A DNA stretch of 29,418 nucleotides, from positions 1 through 29,418 of the IMG/VR virus record IMGVR_UViG_3300009183_000268. One strand, given 5' to 3'. Every line of letters starts with the position of its first letter. The stretch's first letter is position 1. Origin of the DNA: a virus. This document shows positions 5,381 through 29,418 of the stretch, piece by piece. The notes beneath the pieces were generated by a model. The model saw only the letters and a program-made list of their open reading frames with translations, had not been told where the DNA came from and did no database searches. The position numbers and the translations under genes are program-made.

Positions 5381-8300
5381 ATGCTACAAATTAGAACCAC
5401 GGTTGACGGAAAAAATATCTTTCTGGATTTATATCAAAATGAACCAGTATTACTTAATATGTCATTTGCTGAATTGCAAGACATAACAAAGAAGAATAGT
5501 AATTTTTCTCAAACCTTTACATTACCTGGTTCAAAAAAAAATAACATAGTCTTTAATTTCTTTTATGAATTGAATGCAATACCAACAGACTTTAATCCAA
5601 ACAATAAGTTTGAAGCAAGTTTGTTATGGGATGGTTATGAAATCATGCATGGCAATATTAGATTAAATTCAGTGTCAGTTGAAAAAGGAGAGATAATTTA
5701 TTCAGTATCTTTTTATAATCAAATTGGAGACTTAATGTCAAACATTGGTGATAAGTTTTTATTTGATTTAGATTTGAATTATTTAAATCATCCTTATTCA
5801 CAAGATGTAATATTATATTCAAACCTTGACCCCAATTTATTTTCATTAACAGGAACAACAGATTATTCATATCAGAACGGTAAGACGATGTGGGGATTAT
5901 ACAATATTGGTTATGAATATATTTCAGGTAATACTGTTAATTCAGGAACCACACCATTAGTTCAATTTACTCAAGCCAACGCAACCACATTACAATATAC
6001 ACCTCAAGCACCAAACTTTGATTTTACTGGAAGCCCAGTGCATGATTATTATTTTAAACCTTCAATACAGATTAAAGAATTATATTCAGCGATAGTTAAT
6101 GAGGCGGGATATGAAATAGAAAGTTCATTTTTTGATACATCTTATTTCAAAAGATTTTACATGCCACTAAAATTTGTTGATGAAAGTATTTATTCAAGAA
6201 ATGCAATTGCGGCATGTTATACTTATAATAATGAAAATATTCCAGTTGATTATGGATATAACACTTATACTAATCCTTCAAGCGGGATTACATGTAATAG
6301 TTTAGGATGGACAGCAACAACAAGTTCATTTAATATACCAGCAGAGTTTGCGGCGTCATATCAATTTAGATTTACGTTTACGGTAATACCAAGAGTGCAG
6401 TGCGACCCAGATGCAGGGATATTACCTTATTTATATTTCTTTTTTGCGGATGGAACAACAACTGAAACATTATATCCAGGAACAAATTTTTGTGATACAA
6501 CACCACAACCGGTTTCAATAGAGAGAACATTTAATATATCAGGGGATAGTCAATTAGAGTTTTATTTTCAAGGTGATTATATTGATATTAGTGGTTTTAC
6601 ATCACAGATAATTAATCCACCAAGATTTATTCCTAATGGTTCAATTATTAATTATGATATTGAATTCCCACCAAATGATTATTCTCAAATTGATTTTATA
6701 ACATCGGTCAATAAATATTTTAATTTAATTGTAGTTCCAAATCCCGACTATCCGAAGAAATTAATTATTGAACCTATCGTAGATTATGTTGGAAGTGGGG
6801 TAGTATTAGATTGGACAACTAAGGTTGATGCCAATTCAATACAAAGTTTATATCCAACAAGTTCATTATTAAATGGAACACTACACTTTGAATTTAAGTT
6901 AGACCAAGATTACGCCAACCAAGATTTTAAAGGGCAAACTAATAGAATATTTGGAACAGATAAGTTTCAATTAAATTTAGATTATAAAGATACAATTACT
7001 AAATTTGATTTTTTATTTTCATCTCCAATTGATATTACAGTTTCAAACTCTTTTGTTCCATTGATTACATTATCTTCAATGTCAAAAGTTAAGACAATTG
7101 ATAATGCGGGTAAATCATTACAAACATTTGTTCCATTTAAGATATTACCAAAAATGGTATTCAGAGGTTTAACATTACCAAATGATAACTATGGTTTTAT
7201 TGCGGGGTCAGGAACAACCGCATCAACAACTTGCACATCAGGAATTACTTATACAACAAATTTAGCGGGAAGACCATTATTTTATAATGACTGTAATGGA
7301 GTGCAACAAGTTTATTATGGAAGCACTGTTGGTTCGAATACATTACCAGGTTGTGCAAATCCGTATACCTTATATTATCCTTTAGTTTTATTTCCATATC
7401 CAACATTAACTATAACAAGTAATGGAACATCATGTAATACAGCACCACCAAGTCAATATCAGTATTGGTATATGAACCAATTACAACAAGATAGATGGAC
7501 AAACATTAATAGATTTACAACATACCCATTCAACTATAATAACTTTTCACACTACACAAACTTTAGAGGAGAAGATAAAACTAATATTACTCCATCTGAA
7601 TTCACATTTATTAATGATGATTTGTATAACATATACTATCAAGATTATATTGATGATATAATTAGTGAAGAAAATAAAATCTATTCAACTAAGATTTATT
7701 TATATCCAAATGATATTCAGTCTTTAACTTGGAAAGAAAAAATTTTAATCAACAATACTTATTTTAGAATTAATAAGATAACAAATTGGAATGCCTTAGA
7801 ACCTGCGGTATGTGATATTGAATTAGTTAAGTTAACAAAAGATTATCAGTCTCATCCTATATTGTATTATGATTTAATACCTTGTAGTTCAGGAGCAACA
7901 TTACATTCAAACTCTGATTTGAATTATAATCTATATGCCTACGCAGGAACTTATGTTAAATTATATGATGATGCATTAAGTTATCTTGGTTGTTATTCTG
8001 TTTCAATTGGAGAGTATGACCCATTAGATACTTATAATCATTATTATATTGGAAGTGGTTATACATCAACAAATGTCGGAGCATATCCTGATTGTGGTTG
8101 CACAGGAAGAACGCCATTTAATATAGTTCAAGAAGAACCAAACGAAGATAGAGTATTTTATTTTAGAGGGATAGAGTGTAATGGAAGTGATGAATATAAT
8201 TTCACAGCAAATACAACATCATTAAATACCGCATTAATCTATAAAGTTAAAAATCCAACAACAGATATAACATATTGTATATCAGGAATATCAATTACAA

Positions 8301-9151
8301 GTGCATCATTAATTAATTATGACTTTGTTAATACTTATGCAAATTGTGTTGATTGTAATTATGTTCCACCTACTCCAACACCAACACCAACAAACACATC
8401 TACACCAACTAATACCCCATCACCAACTCCAACAACACCTCCTGTAGACCAATGTTTCTGTTATGATATTATAGTATCCGCAACAACATCAGAAGAAGGA
8501 GGATTTATTGCGAGCATTACTTATAATAATTGTTTTGGTGTATTAACAGGAAGAGCGTTTACAACGGGACCAGGAACATATAAACAATGTATTCAAAGAA
8601 GTGGTGGTGTAGTTCAATATTTTACTTCAGATGGTATTGATACAAGTTCATTAATAGGAGTTGGAAATGGTAATTGTAATACAGGTTATGTCTGCACAGG
8701 ATATGTTCCAGCAGGAATAACTCCAACCCCAACAATGACTAATACAATGACACCAACTCCAAGTGCAACAATTGGATTAACACCAACGGCAACACCAGTT
8801 CCATCGGCAACTCCAACACAAACACAAACTCCTACTGCAACAATTGGATTAACTCCAACACCAACAGGAACACCAGCAATAACTCCTACTCCAACTGAAA
8901 GTCCAGCGGTTAGTTATACTTTTTATTTAGCGGATGAATATGAATGTTTAAATCCAGGTTGTGCATTTGTTCAATCAAATGTATTAGTTGCATTACCAAG
9001 TTCAGTATCACCAAATTATGGTAATTTCTATCCAGCATTATATCCAAATGGTTATACTTATACATTAATAACAACAACGGTTGGGACTGGTGGATTATTA
9101 TTAGATACAATAAATTTTAAATCATGTAATACAGCATGTTCTGTATTATAA
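5381..9151 (+). CDS. Tail-tip / baseplate hub-like protein with C-terminal adhesin modules
   Basis: A 1256-residue protein in two parts. Residues 1 to about 820 form the virion part. It starts with LDLYQNEPVLLNMSFAELQD, TKKNSNFSQTFTLPGSKKNN and FNPNNKFEASLLWDGYEI, an N-terminus common in tail-tip proteins of Bacteroidota phages and suggestive of a gp27-type hub. Residues about 822-994 form a Cys-bearing region ending NCVDCNYVPP. Then come a Thr-Pro linker (about 996-1021), a Cys module (about 1023-1112), a second linker (about 1114-1175) and a final 80-residue Cys module. The joined modules have the same style as those of the 657- and 844-residue proteins, so I infer receptor-binding decorations fused to a tip protein. 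The start is 2 nt after the previous stop. The hub assignment is inference. Confidence 0.6.
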   Translation: MLQIRTTVDGKNIFLDLYQNEPVLLNMSFAELQDITKKNSNFSQTFTLPGSKKNNIVFNFFYELNAIPTDFNPNNKFEASLLWDGYEIMHGNIRLNSVSVEKGEIIYSVSFYNQIGDLMSNIGDKFLFDLDLNYLNHPYSQDVILYSNLDPNLFSLTGTTDYSYQNGKTMWGLYNIGYEYISGNTVNSGTTPLVQFTQANATTLQYTPQAPNFDFTGSPVHDYYFKPSIQIKELYSAIVNEAGYEIESSFFDTSYFKRFYMPLKFVDESIYSRNAIAACYTYNNENIPVDYGYNTYTNPSSGITCNSLGWTATTSSFNIPAEFAASYQFRFTFTVIPRVQCDPDAGILPYLYFFFADGTTTETLYPGTNFCDTTPQPVSIERTFNISGDSQLEFYFQGDYIDISGFTSQIINPPRFIPNGSIINYDIEFPPNDYSQIDFITSVNKYFNLIVVPNPDYPKKLIIEPIVDYVGSGVVLDWTTKVDANSIQSLYPTSSLLNGTLHFEFKLDQDYANQDFKGQTNRIFGTDKFQLNLDYKDTITKFDFLFSSPIDITVSNSFVPLITLSSMSKVKTIDNAGKSLQTFVPFKILPKMVFRGLTLPNDNYGFIAGSGTTASTTCTSGITYTTNLAGRPLFYNDCNGVQQVYYGSTVGSNTLPGCANPYTLYYPLVLFPYPTLTITSNGTSCNTAPPSQYQYWYMNQLQQDRWTNINRFTTYPFNYNNFSHYTNFRGEDKTNITPSEFTFINDDLYNIYYQDYIDDIISEENKIYSTKIYLYPNDIQSLTWKEKILINNTYFRINKITNWNALEPAVCDIELVKLTKDYQSHPILYYDLIPCSSGATLHSNSDLNYNLYAYAGTYVKLYDDALSYLGCYSVSIGEYDPLDTYNHYYIGSGYTSTNVGAYPDCGCTGRTPFNIVQEEPNEDRVFYFRGIECNGSDEYNFTANTTSLNTALIYKVKNPTTDITYCISGISITSASLINYDFVNTYANCVDCNYVPPTPTPTPTNTSTPTNTPSPTPTTPPVDQCFCYDIIVSATTSEEGGFIASITYNNCFGVLTGRAFTTGPGTYKQCIQRSGGVVQYFTSDGIDTSSLIGVGNGNCNTGYVCTGYVPAGITPTPTMTNTMTPTPSATIGLTPTATPVPSATPTQTQTPTATIGLTPTPTGTPAITPTPTESPAVSYTFYLADEYECLNPGCAFVQSNVLVALPSSVSPNYGNFYPALYPNGYTYTLITTTVGTGGLLLDTINFKSCNTACSVL
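8366..8443 (+). repeat. Thr-Pro linker in the 1256-residue tip protein
   Basis: About 26 residues of PTPTPTNT type separating a region ending NCVDCNYV from the next Cys module. Confidence 0.85.
8720..8905 (+). repeat. Second Thr-Pro linker in the 1256-residue tip protein
   Basis: About 62 residues. The unit ATIGLTPT occurs twice (near 8766 and 8839), an internal duplication within the linker. The linker precedes the C-terminal Cys module. Confidence 0.85.
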
Positions 9152-9169
9152 AAAAAGATATTTAATATT

Positions 9170-11704
9170 ATGAGTTGTAATTTTTATGTTCATCAAGACC
9201 CATCAGGTGGTGCAAAATATGTATCAGGAACAACATGTTCTGGCACCGAAGCATATTATTATTTAACTTATGGACAAAGTGTTTGTATGGATAATAATAA
9301 ACCATTGGTTAATCTTAATGGATTAATTATTAGTGGTTCATGTTTACCAATTACACCAACACCATCAACAACTCCACTTGAATATTGTTTTGTATCTGGA
9401 TTAACTTATACAACCGTTCCTTATCAATGTCCAAATGATGGACTAATTTATTATGATGTTTATGGTTCATTAAAAATAACAGCAACAATTGGAGGAAGAA
9501 TTGAAGATACAAATCCGGCAATTCCAGTTAGTATTTCAAATGGTATTCAAACACAAATTATAACAATTCCTCAAGGACAAACATTTACTGAATTTGTTTA
9601 TCCAAAAGTTAATTTTAGATATACTGATACTGGTTGTATTTCAACAAATTATCCTGATTGGTATATTATTGGTTCTCCATCAATAACTCAATGTTTATTC
9701 TTTACCCCAACTCCAACAACAACTCCAAGCCAAACACCAACACAAACCCCAACTAATACCCAGACCCCAACCCAAACAAGTAGTGAAACACCAACTCCTA
9801 CTCAGACCCCAACTAATACTGGAACACCAACTCAAACGCCAACTAATACTGAAACATCTACTCCAACACAAACGCAAACACAAACACAGACACAAACGCA
9901 AACACAAACACAGACACAAACTCCTACAAATACTAATACACAGACGCCAACTAATACACAAACGCCTACTAACACACAAACACAAACTCCTACAGCAACA
10001 TCAAATCCTATTTGTCCAGAACAAATAATTGTATCAAATTCAAATCCGGTTTATTCTGGAGCAGTTGGAACTTATACAAGAACTTACACTTATTCAGGAG
10101 GCTCATTTAATTATGGATACTTCTCAGCAAATACAGGTGGTGCAACATTTATGACTGGTCTTGATGGAACAGGTAATGGAGCAATTGTATATCAATATTA
10201 TAACTCAATATTGAACCAATATTGGCAATTAGTTGGATTTAGTAATCCTACTCCAAATCAAATAATAAACTTTGATTTATTTGATACTGTTGGTGGATTT
10301 TTAAGTATGGGTTATCAACCATTATTACCATTAGGAACAGGAACATTAGACATAATGGGAGTTATAAATAATGGTGGTGTTTTATATCCACAAAAAGGAC
10401 AAACAGCATTTAATAATTTTTATATTTCATATCCTGCAAGTTGTCCAACTCCTACTCCTACACAAACCCCAACTCAAACACAAACTCCTACTAATACTAC
10501 AACTCAAACCAATACACCAAGTCCAACACCACCACCAAGTGGAGCAACTGAAGCATACGCATATCTTAATGCTGTTGTTAGTGCAGGAGGACTTATAACT
10601 CCAACAATAAGTGCTTGCACAATAACATTATTCCAACAATTATTTACTAATGGTCTTTGGAATAAAATACAAGCATTCTATCCATTCTTAGGCCGCAATG
10701 TTGCAGGTGCTAAATTTAATGGTAAAAATCCTGTTGATAGTGATGCAGCATATAGATTACAATTTAATGGAGGGTGGAGTTTTGGAGTATTTGGGGCAAC
10801 ATCAAATGGAACAAATGCTTATGCCGATACATTCTTGTCAGCAACCACTATTGGTTCATTAAATAATCACATGGGTGTTTATATGCAAAATGCTACTTAT
10901 CCAACAAGTAGAACTTATATTGGAACGGCCTATCCAAGCACTTATGGTTCTTATTTTTCTTTAGGATATGATAGTTTTGGTAAATTTGTTTATGGTGCAA
11001 AATCATACGGTATTACTACTTCATCAGCAGCAACAATACCAAATGGATTTAATTTAATAACAGGAACTCAAGCACCAAATTTACAAAAACATTTTTATAA
11101 TGGAGTTTTAAAATATACTGCATCATTAACAAATGTTGATAATATTACTTCTTCAATTACTATTGCAGCATTAAATAATAATGGGACTATTCAACAATAT
11201 TATGCAAACAATTATTACTTTGCAACAATTGGTTCTGGTTTAACTGATACTGAAGCAATTAATTATACAAATATTGTTAATACATATTTGGCATGTATTG
11301 GAAGAAATACTTATCCTGCAATTACTCAAACCCCAACACCAACACCTGGATTAAGTCCTACCCCTACTCCTACACCATCTTATGTAGCACCAACACCATC
11401 ACCAACTAAAACTCAAACCCCTACACCAAATCCAACAACAACACCAACCTCAACTCCGGCTGGACCAACATATTATTATTATGAAATGCATCAATTTGCA
11501 ACATCAGCTTGTCTTAGTTATACAACAACTAATGTTAGAAGCACATCTTTATTATCAACAGGTATATCTGCATTTTATTGTAATACAAGCACAGGTGTAA
11601 AATATAGATTATTTCAAACTATTGCGCCTGGTTCTTATTCAATTATTAATACAAGTGCTTGGCTAGGACCATATTCAAGTTGTTCATCAATGCCATGCCC
11701 TTAA
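9170..11704 (+). CDS. Modular Thr-Pro-linked adhesin with a lectin-like domain
   Basis: An 844-residue protein made of modules on linkers: a short Cys module (1-60, ending NGLIISGSCLP), a beta module (about 70-177), a 100-residue Thr-Pro/Gln-Thr linker (179-278), a beta module (about 280-425), a short linker, a globular domain (about 457-718), a linker and a C-terminal Cys module (about 765-844). The globular domain (WNKIQAFYPFLGRN, AKFNGKNPVDSDAAYRLQFN, GGWSFGVFGATSNGTNAYAD) is a type I recall at the ends of tail adhesins in uncultured Bacteroidota phages and probably has a LamG/concanavalin-like fold. I see no secretion signal, so it should be assembled onto the virion. It lies just downstream of the tip protein and upstream of the tape measure. 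The target receptor is unknown. Confidence 0.6.
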   Translation: MSCNFYVHQDPSGGAKYVSGTTCSGTEAYYYLTYGQSVCMDNNKPLVNLNGLIISGSCLPITPTPSTTPLEYCFVSGLTYTTVPYQCPNDGLIYYDVYGSLKITATIGGRIEDTNPAIPVSISNGIQTQIITIPQGQTFTEFVYPKVNFRYTDTGCISTNYPDWYIIGSPSITQCLFFTPTPTTTPSQTPTQTPTNTQTPTQTSSETPTPTQTPTNTGTPTQTPTNTETSTPTQTQTQTQTQTQTQTQTQTPTNTNTQTPTNTQTPTNTQTQTPTATSNPICPEQIIVSNSNPVYSGAVGTYTRTYTYSGGSFNYGYFSANTGGATFMTGLDGTGNGAIVYQYYNSILNQYWQLVGFSNPTPNQIINFDLFDTVGGFLSMGYQPLLPLGTGTLDIMGVINNGGVLYPQKGQTAFNNFYISYPASCPTPTPTQTPTQTQTPTNTTTQTNTPSPTPPPSGATEAYAYLNAVVSAGGLITPTISACTITLFQQLFTNGLWNKIQAFYPFLGRNVAGAKFNGKNPVDSDAAYRLQFNGGWSFGVFGATSNGTNAYADTFLSATTIGSLNNHMGVYMQNATYPTSRTYIGTAYPSTYGSYFSLGYDSFGKFVYGAKSYGITTSSAATIPNGFNLITGTQAPNLQKHFYNGVLKYTASLTNVDNITSSITIAALNNNGTIQQYYANNYYFATIGSGLTDTEAINYTNIVNTYLACIGRNTYPAITQTPTPTPGLSPTPTPTPSYVAPTPSPTKTQTPTPNPTTTPTSTPAGPTYYYYEMHQFATSACLSYTTTNVRSTSLLSTGISAFYCNTSTGVKYRLFQTIAPGSYSIINTSAWLGPYSSCSSMPCP
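9704..10003 (+). repeat. Thr-Pro / Gln-Thr linker of the 844-residue adhesin
   Basis: Exactly 100 codons, from TPTPTTTPS to a long alternating QT tract and back to TPTNT units. It contains a perfect 24-nt tandem repeat, listed separately. Confidence 0.9.
9871..9918 (+). repeat. Perfect 24-nt tandem duplication coding Gln-Thr repeats
   Basis: Positions 9871-9894 and 9895-9918 are identical 24-mers, themselves built from degenerate hexamers of the type aacaca/aacgca. Loss or gain of any unit keeps the frame because 6 and 24 are multiples of three. Confidence 0.9.
10445..10540 (+). repeat. Short Thr-Pro linker before the lectin-like domain
   Basis: About 32 residues of TPTQT and TPTNT type that end in PSPTPPPS and lead into the globular domain. 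Confidence 0.85.
11324..11465 (+). repeat. Thr-Pro linker before the C-terminal Cys module
   Basis: About 47 residues of TPTPTPG, SPTPTPTPS and TQTPTPNPT type joining the lectin-like domain to the last module of the 844-residue adhesin. Confidence 0.85.
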
Positions 11705-16117: not shown

Positions 16118-16486
16118 ATGGCAACATTTGTAGAATTCATATCAAGTTTAAATAGTTGTAAACAACAAGCCGTATTCTGGCATAATCAAACAACGTCTTA
16201 TTCAACACATAAAACTTTAAATGGTTTTTATGAAGAAATAGAAGATTTGTTAGATGGATTAGTTGAAAGCACAGCAGGAATTTATGGAAGACCTGTTGAT
16301 TATACAACACATGACCCAGAAGATTATGTATCAGTAGAACAAGTTATTGAATACTTTAAAAAAGTGTATGACTACGTTCAAACTGAAAGAAAAAATTTAT
16401 ATCAAGAAAGTTGGATACAAAATCAAATTGACGAGATAGCAGCATTAGTTGCACAAACATTATACCTTTTAACTTTAAATAAGTAA
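16118..16486 (+). CDS. Dps/ferritin-like four-helix protein (DUF5856-like)
   Basis: A 122-residue, all-helical protein. The segment FWHNQTTSYSTHKTLNGFYE continues to DLLDGLVES. His31, Asp46 and Glu50 have the same spacing as the ferroxidase ligands His63, Asp78 and Glu82 of E. coli Dps, and Trp21/His22 sit near the position of its His51-Trp52. Such proteins occur in phages; their role is unproven, with iron binding, DNA protection or head assembly as options. It lies between the MuF-like gene and the protease, and its stop overlaps the protease start (TAATG). The DUF5856 name is from memory; the ferritin-like fold is the firmer claim. Confidence 0.55.
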   Translation: MATFVEFISSLNSCKQQAVFWHNQTTSYSTHKTLNGFYEEIEDLLDGLVESTAGIYGRPVDYTTHDPEDYVSVEQVIEYFKKVYDYVQTERKNLYQESWIQNQIDEIAALVAQTLYLLTLNK

Positions 16487-16971
16487 TGGATAATATATTA
16501 AAGAAGACCTTTGCATTAGACGAAGAAAAGAAAATGATTATTGGGGCAGCAATGATACCCAATAAAATGATTATTCGTTATGATGAATTAGGAAATCCTT
16601 ACTACGTTTATTTTAGTAAACAGAGTATTCAAAAAATGTCCGCCAAATTTTTAAGAGAAAAGCGCACGGATGAAGCCAGTGTAGAACATGATGGTAAAAA
16701 ATTAGGTTCTGAAAAAGTATTTATAACAGAGAGTTGGGTTAGTGATGACCCAGTTTACGATAAATCACACAAATATGGATTTAATCTTCCATCGGGAACA
16801 TGGTTTGTTTCAATGAAGATTAATGATAATAGCGTGTGGAAAATGATTAAAGAGAAATCTTTAAATGGATTTTCAGTTGAAGGGTTATTTGCTGAAAAAT
16901 CTATGTTCTCAAAAGAGGACAAACAAATAAACCAAATTACTCAAATACTTAAATCAATTACAGATGAATAG
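16486..16971 (+). CDS. Prohead protease, XkdF type (Peptidase_S78_2-like)
   Basis: A 161-residue catalytic domain that would cleave scaffold and head proteins during maturation. Signature segments are present: IIGAAMIPNKMIIRYDELGN, YYVYFSKQSI, VEHDGKKLG with putative catalytic His68, ITESWVSDD, LPSGTWFVSMKI, and LNGFSVEGLF with putative catalytic Ser130. The N-terminal segment usually fused ahead of this domain is missing and is found instead in the gene at 14917. The start (ATG at 16486) shares its A with the previous stop; the end overlaps the scaffold gene by 8 nt, the standard protease-scaffold-MCP order. Confidence 0.8.
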   Translation: MDNILKKTFALDEEKKMIIGAAMIPNKMIIRYDELGNPYYVYFSKQSIQKMSAKFLREKRTDEASVEHDGKKLGSEKVFITESWVSDDPVYDKSHKYGFNLPSGTWFVSMKINDNSVWKMIKEKSLNGFSVEGLFAEKSMFSKEDKQINQITQILKSITDE

Positions 16972-19375: not shown

Positions 19376-19416
19376 AAACATGGGAGGGTATACATTACTC
19401 TCCTGTGTTTTATTTT
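19376..19416 (+). terminator. Intrinsic terminator-like hairpin after the tube gene
   Basis: Arms at 19376-19388 and 19398-19410 form a 13-bp stem when three G-U pairs are allowed, with a 9-nt loop (tatacatta) and a TATTTTTA tract after it. It lies just ahead of the next gene and covers an alternative GTG start at 19405. Confidence 0.65.
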
Positions 19417-19422
19417 TATATC

Positions 19423-21321
19423 ATGATATTAATAAAGACTAACCAGGAAAATACAATTGTAATAACAGTATCACAAAATGCTGAATTACCAAATCCACAA
19501 TGGTTATTTTCATTTACTCATATCTTTTCAAAAAGAACAGTTAGATTTGTTTTACCAAATGTGTCAACACATAAAAGTAGATATGATGAATTTGTTTTTG
19601 TTGAAGGACAAGGTGCTAATGAAATTGCTTTTCCATTTGAAGGTCAATATATTTATAATGTCTATGAACAAGTTGCACAAATTCCTGAAAATCTTAATCC
19701 AGCCTTAGCATATAATGTTGTTGAAACTGGTATTGCTACCGTAATTGCAATGTCTTCATCTACAACAAATGATTATTATGAAGAATTTATTTCTCCAAAT
19801 GAATTTAATGCAAACTATATTTTTGCTCCTAATGAATTAAATCCTCCAACACAAACTCCTACTGAGACTGCAACCAATACTCCAACTCCATCAATAACAC
19901 CAACAAACACACCTACAGCCTCCATTACGCCATCCAATACAGCAACCCCTACAGAAACACCAGTGATTAGTCCAAGTCCAACCACAACATCTACAATCAC
20001 TCCTACACCAAGTATTACTGCATCACATACTCCAACCAAAACACCAACACAAACTCCGACTAATACAAAGACTTCAACGCCTACGCCTACTAATACAAAA
20101 ACACAAACTCCTACACCAACCACAACAACAACTTTGACGGCTACGCCAACTCAAACTGCATCTAATACTCCTACCCCAACTCAAACTAAAACCCCTACCC
20201 AAACTCCTACTAATACTAAAACTCCTACTCAAACGCCAACTCCAAGTATTACTGCATCACAAACTCAAACTCCTAGCCCTACAACAACTTTAACGGCTAC
20301 ACCAACTCAAACACAAACATCTACAAATACTCCTACGCCAAGTATTACTGCCTCACAAACAATGACGCCTACTCCAAGTATTACGGCAAGCCAAACACAA
20401 ACTCCTACTAATACTCCTACCCCTACTCAAACCCCTACAAATACTATAACTCAAACACAAACGCCAACTAACACAGCAAGTCAAACTCAAACCCCTACAC
20501 CAAGTATTACAGCAAGTCAAACAATGACACCTACTAATACTAATACTCAAACAGGAAGTCCTACACCAACTCCTACTGCAACACCATTTAGTCCAGCATC
20601 ACTTAGTCCAGTTATTTGGGTGGATTTCTCAGATACCGCAACAATGACATTTAGGGCAGGAACAAATTTCTTAGAAAAAATAACAAATAAAGGAGTTTAT
20701 GGTGGATTAACAGCATTTACTCAAACTAATGCTGCGGACCAACCAGCAATTTCATCTTGGACCGGTTCTTCAAGTGTTGTAATATCAGCAACAACAGTTT
20801 CTAATGATTGGGTAAATTCAAATATATCAACAACAGGTTCTTCAAATTGGACAAGAATAGTTGTTGTTAGTGAAAAAAGCGGCGGTTTCCAACCATATAG
20901 ATGGTCATTTAATTCAGGAGCCTCTTCAGTATCAACATATAATAATAATGGTGGAAATTATTTTAAATCTCTTTTTAATGGTTCTAGTTTTTTATATTTC
21001 AGAAGAGATTGTGCATTAACAAATAGACCAAATAGTGGTCAAACAATAATTGATTACATTTCAACATCTGCAGCAACGCCAATAAGTTATTCTGAATGTA
21101 ATACAAGTGCATTTACAGAAACAACAACAGCAGGTTCAAATGGAGCAACAGTTCAAAACTTTCCTTCTGCAGGAACACTTTCTTTAATAAATGAAACAGG
21201 CACAACTACGGCATTAACTGGTCAAATTGGAGAAGTAATTTTATTTACAAGAGAATTAACCTCAACTGAAAAAACAAATATTAATAATTATTTAAAAAAT
21301 AAATGGGGATTAAAATATTAA
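19423..21321 (+). CDS. Second Thr-Pro-linked adhesin with C-terminal lectin-like domain
   Basis: A 632-residue protein. I place the start at ATG 19423, because the in-frame GTG at 19405 lies in the terminator stem. Residues 1-140 form a compact beta domain (QNAELPNPQWLFSFTHIFSK, TVRFVLPNVSTHKSRYDEFV) of a type found as a stand-alone virion protein in related phages, probably the anchor. Residues 141-388 are a 248-residue Thr-Pro linker, the longest here. Residues about 389-632 look like a LamG/concanavalin-type lectin domain, starting SLSPVIWVDFSDT and ending IGEVILFTRELTSTEKTNIN plus YLKNKWGL, a familiar ending of such domains. I infer receptor or glycan binding. Two small genes follow at once and may assist it. 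Confidence 0.6.
   Translation: MILIKTNQENTIVITVSQNAELPNPQWLFSFTHIFSKRTVRFVLPNVSTHKSRYDEFVFVEGQGANEIAFPFEGQYIYNVYEQVAQIPENLNPALAYNVVETGIATVIAMSSSTTNDYYEEFISPNEFNANYIFAPNELNPPTQTPTETATNTPTPSITPTNTPTASITPSNTATPTETPVISPSPTTTSTITPTPSITASHTPTKTPTQTPTNTKTSTPTPTNTKTQTPTPTTTTTLTATPTQTASNTPTPTQTKTPTQTPTNTKTPTQTPTPSITASQTQTPSPTTTLTATPTQTQTSTNTPTPSITASQTMTPTPSITASQTQTPTNTPTPTQTPTNTITQTQTPTNTASQTQTPTPSITASQTMTPTNTNTQTGSPTPTPTATPFSPASLSPVIWVDFSDTATMTFRAGTNFLEKITNKGVYGGLTAFTQTNAADQPAISSWTGSSSVVISATTVSNDWVNSNISTTGSSNWTRIVVVSEKSGGFQPYRWSFNSGASSVSTYNNNGGNYFKSLFNGSSFLYFRRDCALTNRPNSGQTIIDYISTSAATPISYSECNTSAFTETTTAGSNGATVQNFPSAGTLSLINETGTTTALTGQIGEVILFTRELTSTEKTNINNYLKNKWGLKY
19843..20586 (+). repeat. 248-codon Thr-Pro linker of the second adhesin
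   Basis: TPT, TQT, TNT and TLTAT units dominate. The phrase TPSITASQT recurs several times (near 20241, 20338, 20374 and 20500), giving a higher-order repeat on top of the dipeptide pattern. The plus strand is nearly free of long G-containing stretches. Confidence 0.9.
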
Positions 21322-28417: not shown

Positions 28418-28714
28418 ATGGAAAAAAACATTTTACACAGAGCACATGAAATCATTTTTCAACGTAAGGAAGAAAAAGAACGTCAGTATGGACCACTTGA
28501 AGATAGTATGGCCAAGGCAGCAAGGGTTGCATCAGAGTTATGCAATAAAGAAATAACAACTGAAGACTTTTATAAGTGTATGATTGCCTTAAAGGTATCA
28601 AGGATGGCTTATAATCTTAAAGATGATACAATGTTAGACACGGTTGCATACGTTGCAGGATTGGATGATTTCAACAAAAAAAATAAAACAAATAACAATG
28701 AAAAACAATTATGA
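28418..28714 (+). CDS. DUF6378-like protein
   Basis: A 98-residue helical protein. The pattern AHEIIFQRKEEKERQYGPLE, AARVASELCNKEITTEDFYK, MIALKVSRMAYNLKDD and LDTVAYVAGL fits the DUF6378 family as I remember it (an R…YG start, then a T-x-x-D-x-x-x-x-M and LK-SR core with a D-x-x-x-Y end). These are found in phages near nucleotide-metabolism genes. The function is not established. The end overlaps the next gene by 17 nt. Confidence 0.6.
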   Translation: MEKNILHRAHEIIFQRKEEKERQYGPLEDSMAKAARVASELCNKEITTEDFYKCMIALKVSRMAYNLKDDTMLDTVAYVAGLDDFNKKNKTNNNEKQL

Positions 28715-29418
28715 ACATGCGTATCGTAAGATACTAAAAAAATGTTTGGGTCATGGAATTTATAGAGATGATAGGACTGGAGTAGGTTCTTATTCTTTAT
28801 TTGATAAACATATTCAAGTTGATGTATCAAAATACTTTCCAATTTTAACAGGCAGAAAGATATTCCAAAGAATATTTGAAACAGAGTTTGAATGGTTTAT
28901 GAATGGTGAAACTGACATTAAAAGATTTCAAGAACGTAATATACATATATGGGATGCATGGGCGGATGGATATGGATACTTAGGACCAGTATATGGATAC
29001 CAAATGTTAAACTTTAATGGTCAAGGTATTAATCAATTGGAACAAGTCATTCATTCAATTAAAACAAATCCAAATTCAAGAAGACATATCATATCACTAT
29101 GGAACCCAGCACAATTAAATGAGATGGCGTTGCCACCATGTTATCATAACTTTCAATTCTATGTTGAGAATAAAAAATTAAGTGTATCCATCACTCAACG
29201 TTCAGGAGATTTGTTTCTTGGTATTCCTTATGATATATGTTTGTTCTCAAGACTATTATTATATGTTGCAAATAAATGTGATTTAAATCCTTATTTGGCC
29301 AGTGTAAAAATTGTTGATGCACATATCTACAAAAATCAATTGGTTGCGATTAATGACTATCTAAGTCAACCTATGCACGATTTACCAACATATACATATA
29401 CCAATGATAAGTTGGAAT
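28698..29418 (+). CDS. Thymidylate-synthase-family enzyme, probably dCMP (hydroxy)methylase; partial at window end
   Basis: The first 240 residues are present; the gene runs off the right edge. Family motifs: RDDRTGVG near 23-30, IWDAWADGYGYLGPVYGYQ (84-102), Arg128/Arg129 in NSRRHIISLWNPAQ, catalytic Cys148 in ALPPCYHNFQFYV, QRSGDLFLGIPYDI (167-180) and DAHIYKNQ (207-214). In dUMP-specific ThyA the residue at position 179 is Asn (E. coli Asn177); here it is Asp. Asp at this site is the known mark of dCMP-using relatives, such as T4 gp42 dCMP hydroxymethylase (Asp179, Cys148), and Asn-to-Asp mutation in thymidylate synthase shifts preference to dCMP. His147 of E. coli is also Tyr here. Methylation versus hydroxymethylation cannot be told from this part. 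Confidence 0.75.
   Translation, partial: MKNNYEHAYRKILKKCLGHGIYRDDRTGVGSYSLFDKHIQVDVSKYFPILTGRKIFQRIFETEFEWFMNGETDIKRFQERNIHIWDAWADGYGYLGPVYGYQMLNFNGQGINQLEQVIHSIKTNPNSRRHIISLWNPAQLNEMALPPCYHNFQFYVENKKLSVSITQRSGDLFLGIPYDICLFSRLLLYVANKCDLNPYLASVKIVDAHIYKNQLVAINDYLSQPMHDLPTYTYTNDKLE

Follow-up and report, generated by a model that had tools for sequence, protein, structure and literature searches.

The window, by which we mean the whole 29,418-bp stretch analysed here (IMG/VR record IMGVR_UViG_3300009183_000268, our G000; 31.6% G+C), is without end repeats and is probably a fragment of a phage genome. Its last gene, a member of the thymidylate synthase (TS) family, runs from an ATG at 28698 through 240 codons and is open up to the last base; no stop codon is present because the contig stops at 29,418. 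As judged from an 88% identical full-length relative in record L002, the missing 3' end would encode about 16 C-terminal residues. The product matched PF00303 (E 9e-74; 248 bits against the Pfam cut-off of 24.3) and PHROG 160, thymidylate synthase (E 5.5e-78), and on these profile matches belongs beyond doubt to the TS superfamily. The nearest cultured-phage enzymes are 40-43% identical to it, and the identity is 36% with E. coli ThyA, 26% with the DLP4 enzyme and 18% with T4 gp42.

Table 1. Genes and active-site codons at the end of the window
Feature	Position	Strand	Evidence
TS-family gene, predicted dCMP C5-methylase	28698..29418	+	ORF, PF00303
DUF6378 gene, 98 aa	28418..28714	+	PF19905, E 2.7e-14
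Leu145 codon (E. coli Leu143; Asp in the T4 gp42 and SPO1 gp29 hydroxymethylases)	29130..29132	+	alignment; PMC6400193
Cys148 codon TGT, catalytic nucleophile (E. coli ThyA C146, T4 gp42 C148)	29139..29141	+	alignment
Tyr149 codon (E. coli His147)	29142..29144	+	alignment; position associated with cytosine modification in PMC8670742
Asp179 codon GAT (E. coli Asn177, T4 gp42 D179), predicted dCMP-selecting residue	29232..29234	+	alignment

The start of the TS-family gene is overlapped by 17 bases by a DUF6378 gene, and the same order was found in 19 relatives in addition to the window. The modelled DUF6378 protein consists of four helices, and its best fold matches, one of them the pyrophosphatase AF1178 (4qgp, Z 5.4), stayed at the noise level of Z about 5. 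The PHROG labels "phosphofructokinase" attached to this gene look unreliable.

Portal and terminase of both the window and a syntenic relative matched phages of Bacteroidota (Nonlabens, Flavobacterium, Bacteroides and Phocaeicola), and the single close match among bacterial assemblies was a contig of a Bacteroidetes MAG, so that a Bacteroidota host is likely on these matches. Elsewhere in the window, four long predicted virion proteins (320-2293, 5381-9151, 9170-11704 and 19405-21321) contain Thr/Pro-rich repeat stretches, interposed between other regions and with Thr up to 24%; these may be flexible linkers, or sites of glycosylation, in proteins of the tail or surface. A "DNA methyltransferase" label (phrog_1530) at 16486-16971 was set aside as a likely database mislabel, the protein otherwise being a head maturation protease.

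Active-site residues and the Asp/Tyr clade

By alignment, the TS superfamily residues E63, R128, R129, C148, R168, S169, D171, H209 and Y211 are present in the window protein; they cover the catalytic Cys, phosphate-binding Args and Glu58 expected of the superfamily. The first-pass annotation had placed Cys148 and Asp179 at the positions known from T4 gp42, and the alignment agrees, pairing them with gp42 C148 and D179 and with ThyA C146 and N177. The equal residue numbers in the window and T4 proteins are partly a chance outcome of insertions and deletions, because the window protein is far less similar to gp42 than to ThyA. Where the canonical dUMP-using TS carries Asn177 (E. coli numbering), Asp179 is found here and throughout the clade to which the protein belongs. 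This Asp is no sequencing accident: none of 15 aligned clade members departs from it, and each of the 74 distinct proteins of the wider clade has it.

Relatives were gathered from viral contigs, phage records and bacterial genomes, and identical sequences were removed. Asp177 was combined with Tyr147 in 74 distinct proteins, with Pro147 in 8 Xp12-like proteins and with Thr or Asn147 in 3 T4-like proteins, while 169 distinct proteins had Asn177 together with His147 or Val147. The Asp/Tyr proteins formed one clade (support 0.97) that excluded the Asp proteins of T4-like and DLP4-like type; in this phylogeny they are a third Asp lineage, apart from those of T4 and of the Xp12 kin. Within the clade, positions 177, 147 and 176 have changed jointly and invariantly, with His147 replaced by Tyr and Phe176 by Tyr. 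One search pattern included Tyr147, so the count of Tyr147 proteins does not measure how common they are; no pattern included position 177, and the link between Tyr147 and Asp177 therefore counts as a result.

The TS of cytosine-modified phage contigs was distinguished from that of unmodified contigs best by two residues, those at positions 177 and 147 (PMC8670742). Work cited in the same paper reports that a single Asn-to-Asp change in the E. coli or L. casei TS shifts the preference to dCMP, with 5-methyl-dCMP as the product. The predicted dCMP specificity of the window enzyme is thus well supported at the sequence level, and the first-pass warning that a plain TS label would mislead is probably justified, the Asp being real and clade-wide.

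Gene neighbourhood

All 29 of the closest relatives have, immediately downstream, a gene for a protein (protein cluster 1) whose C-terminal part is a MazG domain; in the window this gene would fall just beyond the end. The neighbour matched PF03819 (up to E 8.9e-9, above the cut-off in the three proteins tested) and the PHROG MazG profiles (to E 1.5e-31), and carries the EExxE...DxxxD motif of MazG/PRA-PH proteins. Among genes with sufficient flanking sequence, a MazG-type motif was present no more than 1.5 kb away for 49 of 49 in the Asp/Tyr class, 7 of 8 in the Xp12-like Asp class and 4 of 141 in the Asn class (Fisher 3e-41, relatedness of the sequences not corrected for); as the clade members are related, these counts do not represent independent events. 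The first-pass annotation had proposed a search for a dCTPase, a dNMP kinase or a glucosyltransferase nearby, and the MazG-type pyrophosphohydrolase is a candidate for the dCTPase. The T4 hydroxymethylase is paired with a dCTPase. TS and PRA-PH domains also occur together on modified contigs (PMC8670742).

As to the other two enzymes, a Pfam scan covering 46 proteins from a single relative (G024, 63.5 kb) detected no nucleotide kinase, including a dedicated 5-methyl-dCMP kinase, and no glycosyltransferase, glucosyltransferase or carbamoyltransferase. The same scan revealed ribonucleotide reductase, DNA ligase, ERF recombinase, pyrimidine-dimer glycosylase and a PRA-PH domain; DNA ligase and PRA-PH are among the domains associated with modification or co-occurring with TS in modified contigs (PMC8670742). 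Neither a second PF00303 gene nor ThyX was found in 27 records, and neither DHFR, dCMP deaminase nor DNA C5-methyltransferase in the 17 longer records; because the records are fragments, these absences are weak evidence. TET/JBP was not seen in the relatives searched, a search that says little since it had no positive control.

Three further observations were made on the loci of relatives. The N-terminus of the MazG neighbour (L018:10771-11526 and L028:10770-11543) weakly resembles T5orf172/MUG113 (GIY-YIG-type), with scores below the Pfam cut-offs, and may be a DNA-binding or nuclease part fused to the pyrophosphohydrolase. The uncultured marine autographivirus AP013540 (L052:2170-4191) carries a shorter-tailed Asp177/Tyr147 enzyme (Tyr83, Lys92), annotated thyA, beside an NTP pyrophosphohydrolase, a dCMP deaminase and a gene named dTMP kinase; this group may be a fuller cassette for modified cytosine. 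T4-like hydroxymethylase homologues (L287:308-946 and L295:151-795; signature M/S/D/N/D) are located near an ordinary Asn-type TS on the same viral contigs, indicating that the two enzymes can coexist.

Methylation, hydroxymethylation and other readings

In the published signature of dCMP hydroxymethylases, the residue three places ahead of the catalytic Cys is acidic, Asp or Glu (D145 in T4), T4 position 94 is Ser or Thr with Tyr96 two places later, Val85 is present, and the C-terminal tail is missing; T4 has Val where TS has Trp83, and Asp where TS has Leu143 (PMC6400193). The window protein shares the Asp of the T4-D179 type. Three residues before its Cys stands Leu145, which is Leu in 74 of 74 clade members, and at T4 position 94 stands Pro97; E. 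coli position 92 is Pro in 67 and Lys in 7 of the 74. All these proteins except one retain Trp83, and Trp80 is kept too. In most full-length clade proteins the C-terminus is a TS tail of the ITAPVAI kind (..VAI/VAV); the C-terminus of the window protein lies off the contig, and its tail is judged from the 88% identical relatives, which end in ITAPVAI. As far as sequence tells, Asp177 is thus accompanied by the hydride-transfer apparatus (Leu143, Trp83 and, from relatives, the tail). The AlphaFold model of the full-length L002 protein superimposed on the E. coli TS ternary complex 4gev with Z 33.6 and rmsd 1.5 over 251 residues.

SPO1 gp29, a dUMP hydroxymethylase, served as an independent control. 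It has Asn177, Asp at the water-activating position 143 and no TS tail; T4 gp42, acting on dCMP, also has Asp143 and also lacks the ..VAI/VAV tail. Because SPO1 gp29 combines Asn177 with Asp143, the latter goes with hydroxymethylation whichever the base, and it is absent from the Asp/Tyr clade. With the hydroxymethylation residues absent and the methyl-transfer residues kept, 5-methyl-dCMP is the likelier product. The residue set is no proven rule for methylation, since the Asp enzyme of DLP4, a phage related to Xp12, differs at 83, 92, 143 and 147, although it comes closest to a natural methylase reference.

It is quite unlikely that the enzyme works as T4 gp42 does, water rather than hydride adding to the methylene intermediate to yield 5-hydroxymethyl-dCMP, maybe decorated later. 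Such a reaction would account for Asp179 and Cys148, and some metagenome contigs link Asp-type TS to modification derived from 5hmC (PMC8670742), but the replacements at Asp145 and Ser94 of T4, the tail in relatives, the lack of the SPO1 Asp in the clade and the lack of glucosyl- or carbamoyltransferase among the 46 scanned G024 proteins all argue against it, and it was rejected on the published signature and the SPO1 control. The parallel with the T4 dCMP hydroxymethylase drawn in the first-pass annotation consequently breaks down (Leu145, Pro97, Trp88, tail kept in relatives); of the two products that it offered, 5-methylcytosine is favoured by the methylating residue set, and T4-type 5-hydroxymethylcytosine is disfavoured.

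An ordinary dUMP-using TS, in which the Asp is a tolerated variation or permits mixed use of dUMP and dCMP, is also unlikely. The identity to E. coli ThyA and to phage enzymes annotated TS (41-43%), the retained TS apparatus and the finding of no other TS-family gene in the records searched would agree with it. Against it, all 169 Asn-type sequences have His or Val147 whereas the clade changed jointly at 177, 147 and 176, the strong linkage to a MazG-like gene is not seen with Asn types, and no dCMP deaminase, the supplier of dUMP, was found in the 17 longer records. Hardly credible is an enzyme for the ribonucleotide CMP, like MilA of mildiomycin biosynthesis: MilA carries the Asp as well (PMC5175136), but its ribose-preference residues Lys133 and Ala176 are Arg and Ser in the window protein, which keeps Arg128, Arg129 and Ser169, and the context is that of phage replication. 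CMP specificity was rejected on these residues.

The proposed pathway and known systems

We consider it probable, from sequence comparison, that the gene encodes a phage dCMP C5-methylase and that, together with removal of dCTP by MazG, 5-methylcytosine replaces cytosine in the phage DNA. The changes Asn177 to Asp and His147 to Tyr would let a TS bind dCMP instead of dUMP, with the parts for hydride transfer that reduce the methylene intermediate being retained. Cys148 would attack C6 of dCMP, methylene-tetrahydrofolate would supply the one-carbon unit, and hydride transfer would yield 5-methyl-dCMP and dihydrofolate. The MazG-like pyrophosphohydrolase would convert dCTP to dCMP, both draining the dCTP pool and supplying the methylase, so that 5-methyl-dCTP might take the place of dCTP in phage DNA and shield it from restriction. 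For the wider group the chances appear evenly balanced that a large set of mostly uncultured Bacteroidota phages harbours a natural lineage of dCMP methylases, derived from TS through positions 177, 147 and 176 in an origin separate from those of the T4 and Xp12-relative Asp enzymes, and, with the linked MazG, replaces all genomic cytosine with 5-methylcytosine.

Xp12 is a documented case of a phage genome with 5-methylcytosine in place of cytosine, and its relatives are suspected of the same. The present proposal, if true, would add a separate and abundant lineage, clearly recognisable by the residues Trp/Pro/Leu/Tyr/Asp and by a constant partner enzyme. Annotators could then separate dCMP methylases, thymidylate synthases and hydroxymethylases by sequence alone, many environmental phages would be flagged as probably restriction-resistant, and a natural test would be at hand of how few changes convert a thymidylate synthase into a dCMP methylase.

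The activity itself would not be of a new kind, since phage dCMP methylation is known from Xp12 (PMC7653180; also as cited in PMC5175136), in whose DNA all cytosines are 5-methylcytosine (PMC7653180). In our comparisons the DLP4 enzyme stood in for Xp12. Enzymes of the Xp12 type (Xp12 and its relatives DLP4 and AXL1) share with the window enzyme the kinship to TS, the action on dCMP that is predicted for the window enzyme, Asp177 and Tyr176, and with its clade an adjoining nucleotide pyrophosphohydrolase gene. The DLP4 enzyme differs in Phe83, Ser92, Asn143, Pro147 and its tail, and the DLP4 genome has the DHFR and dCMP deaminase genes that were not found in the 17 longer records of the window relatives. 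T4 gp42 agrees in superfamily, Cys148, Asp179 and the expected substrate dCMP, in contrast to its low identity and to its Asp, Ser and Val in place of Leu145, Pro97 and Trp88, with the tail kept in window relatives. The MetaGPA contigs (PMC8670742) resemble the clade in Asp177, an altered position 147 and the co-occurrence of pyrophosphohydrolase and DNA ligase domains; in the worked example there, a TS homologue is accompanied by a 5hmC carbamoyltransferase, a type of enzyme not detected among the 46 G024 proteins. Through Asp177 in an otherwise methylating active site, the window enzyme resembles the engineered dCMP methylases L. casei TS N229D and E. coli TS N177D, for which 5-methyl-dCMP is the product according to the reports cited in PMC8670742; unlike these, the window lineage is natural and carries, in addition, His147 to Tyr and Phe176 to Tyr.
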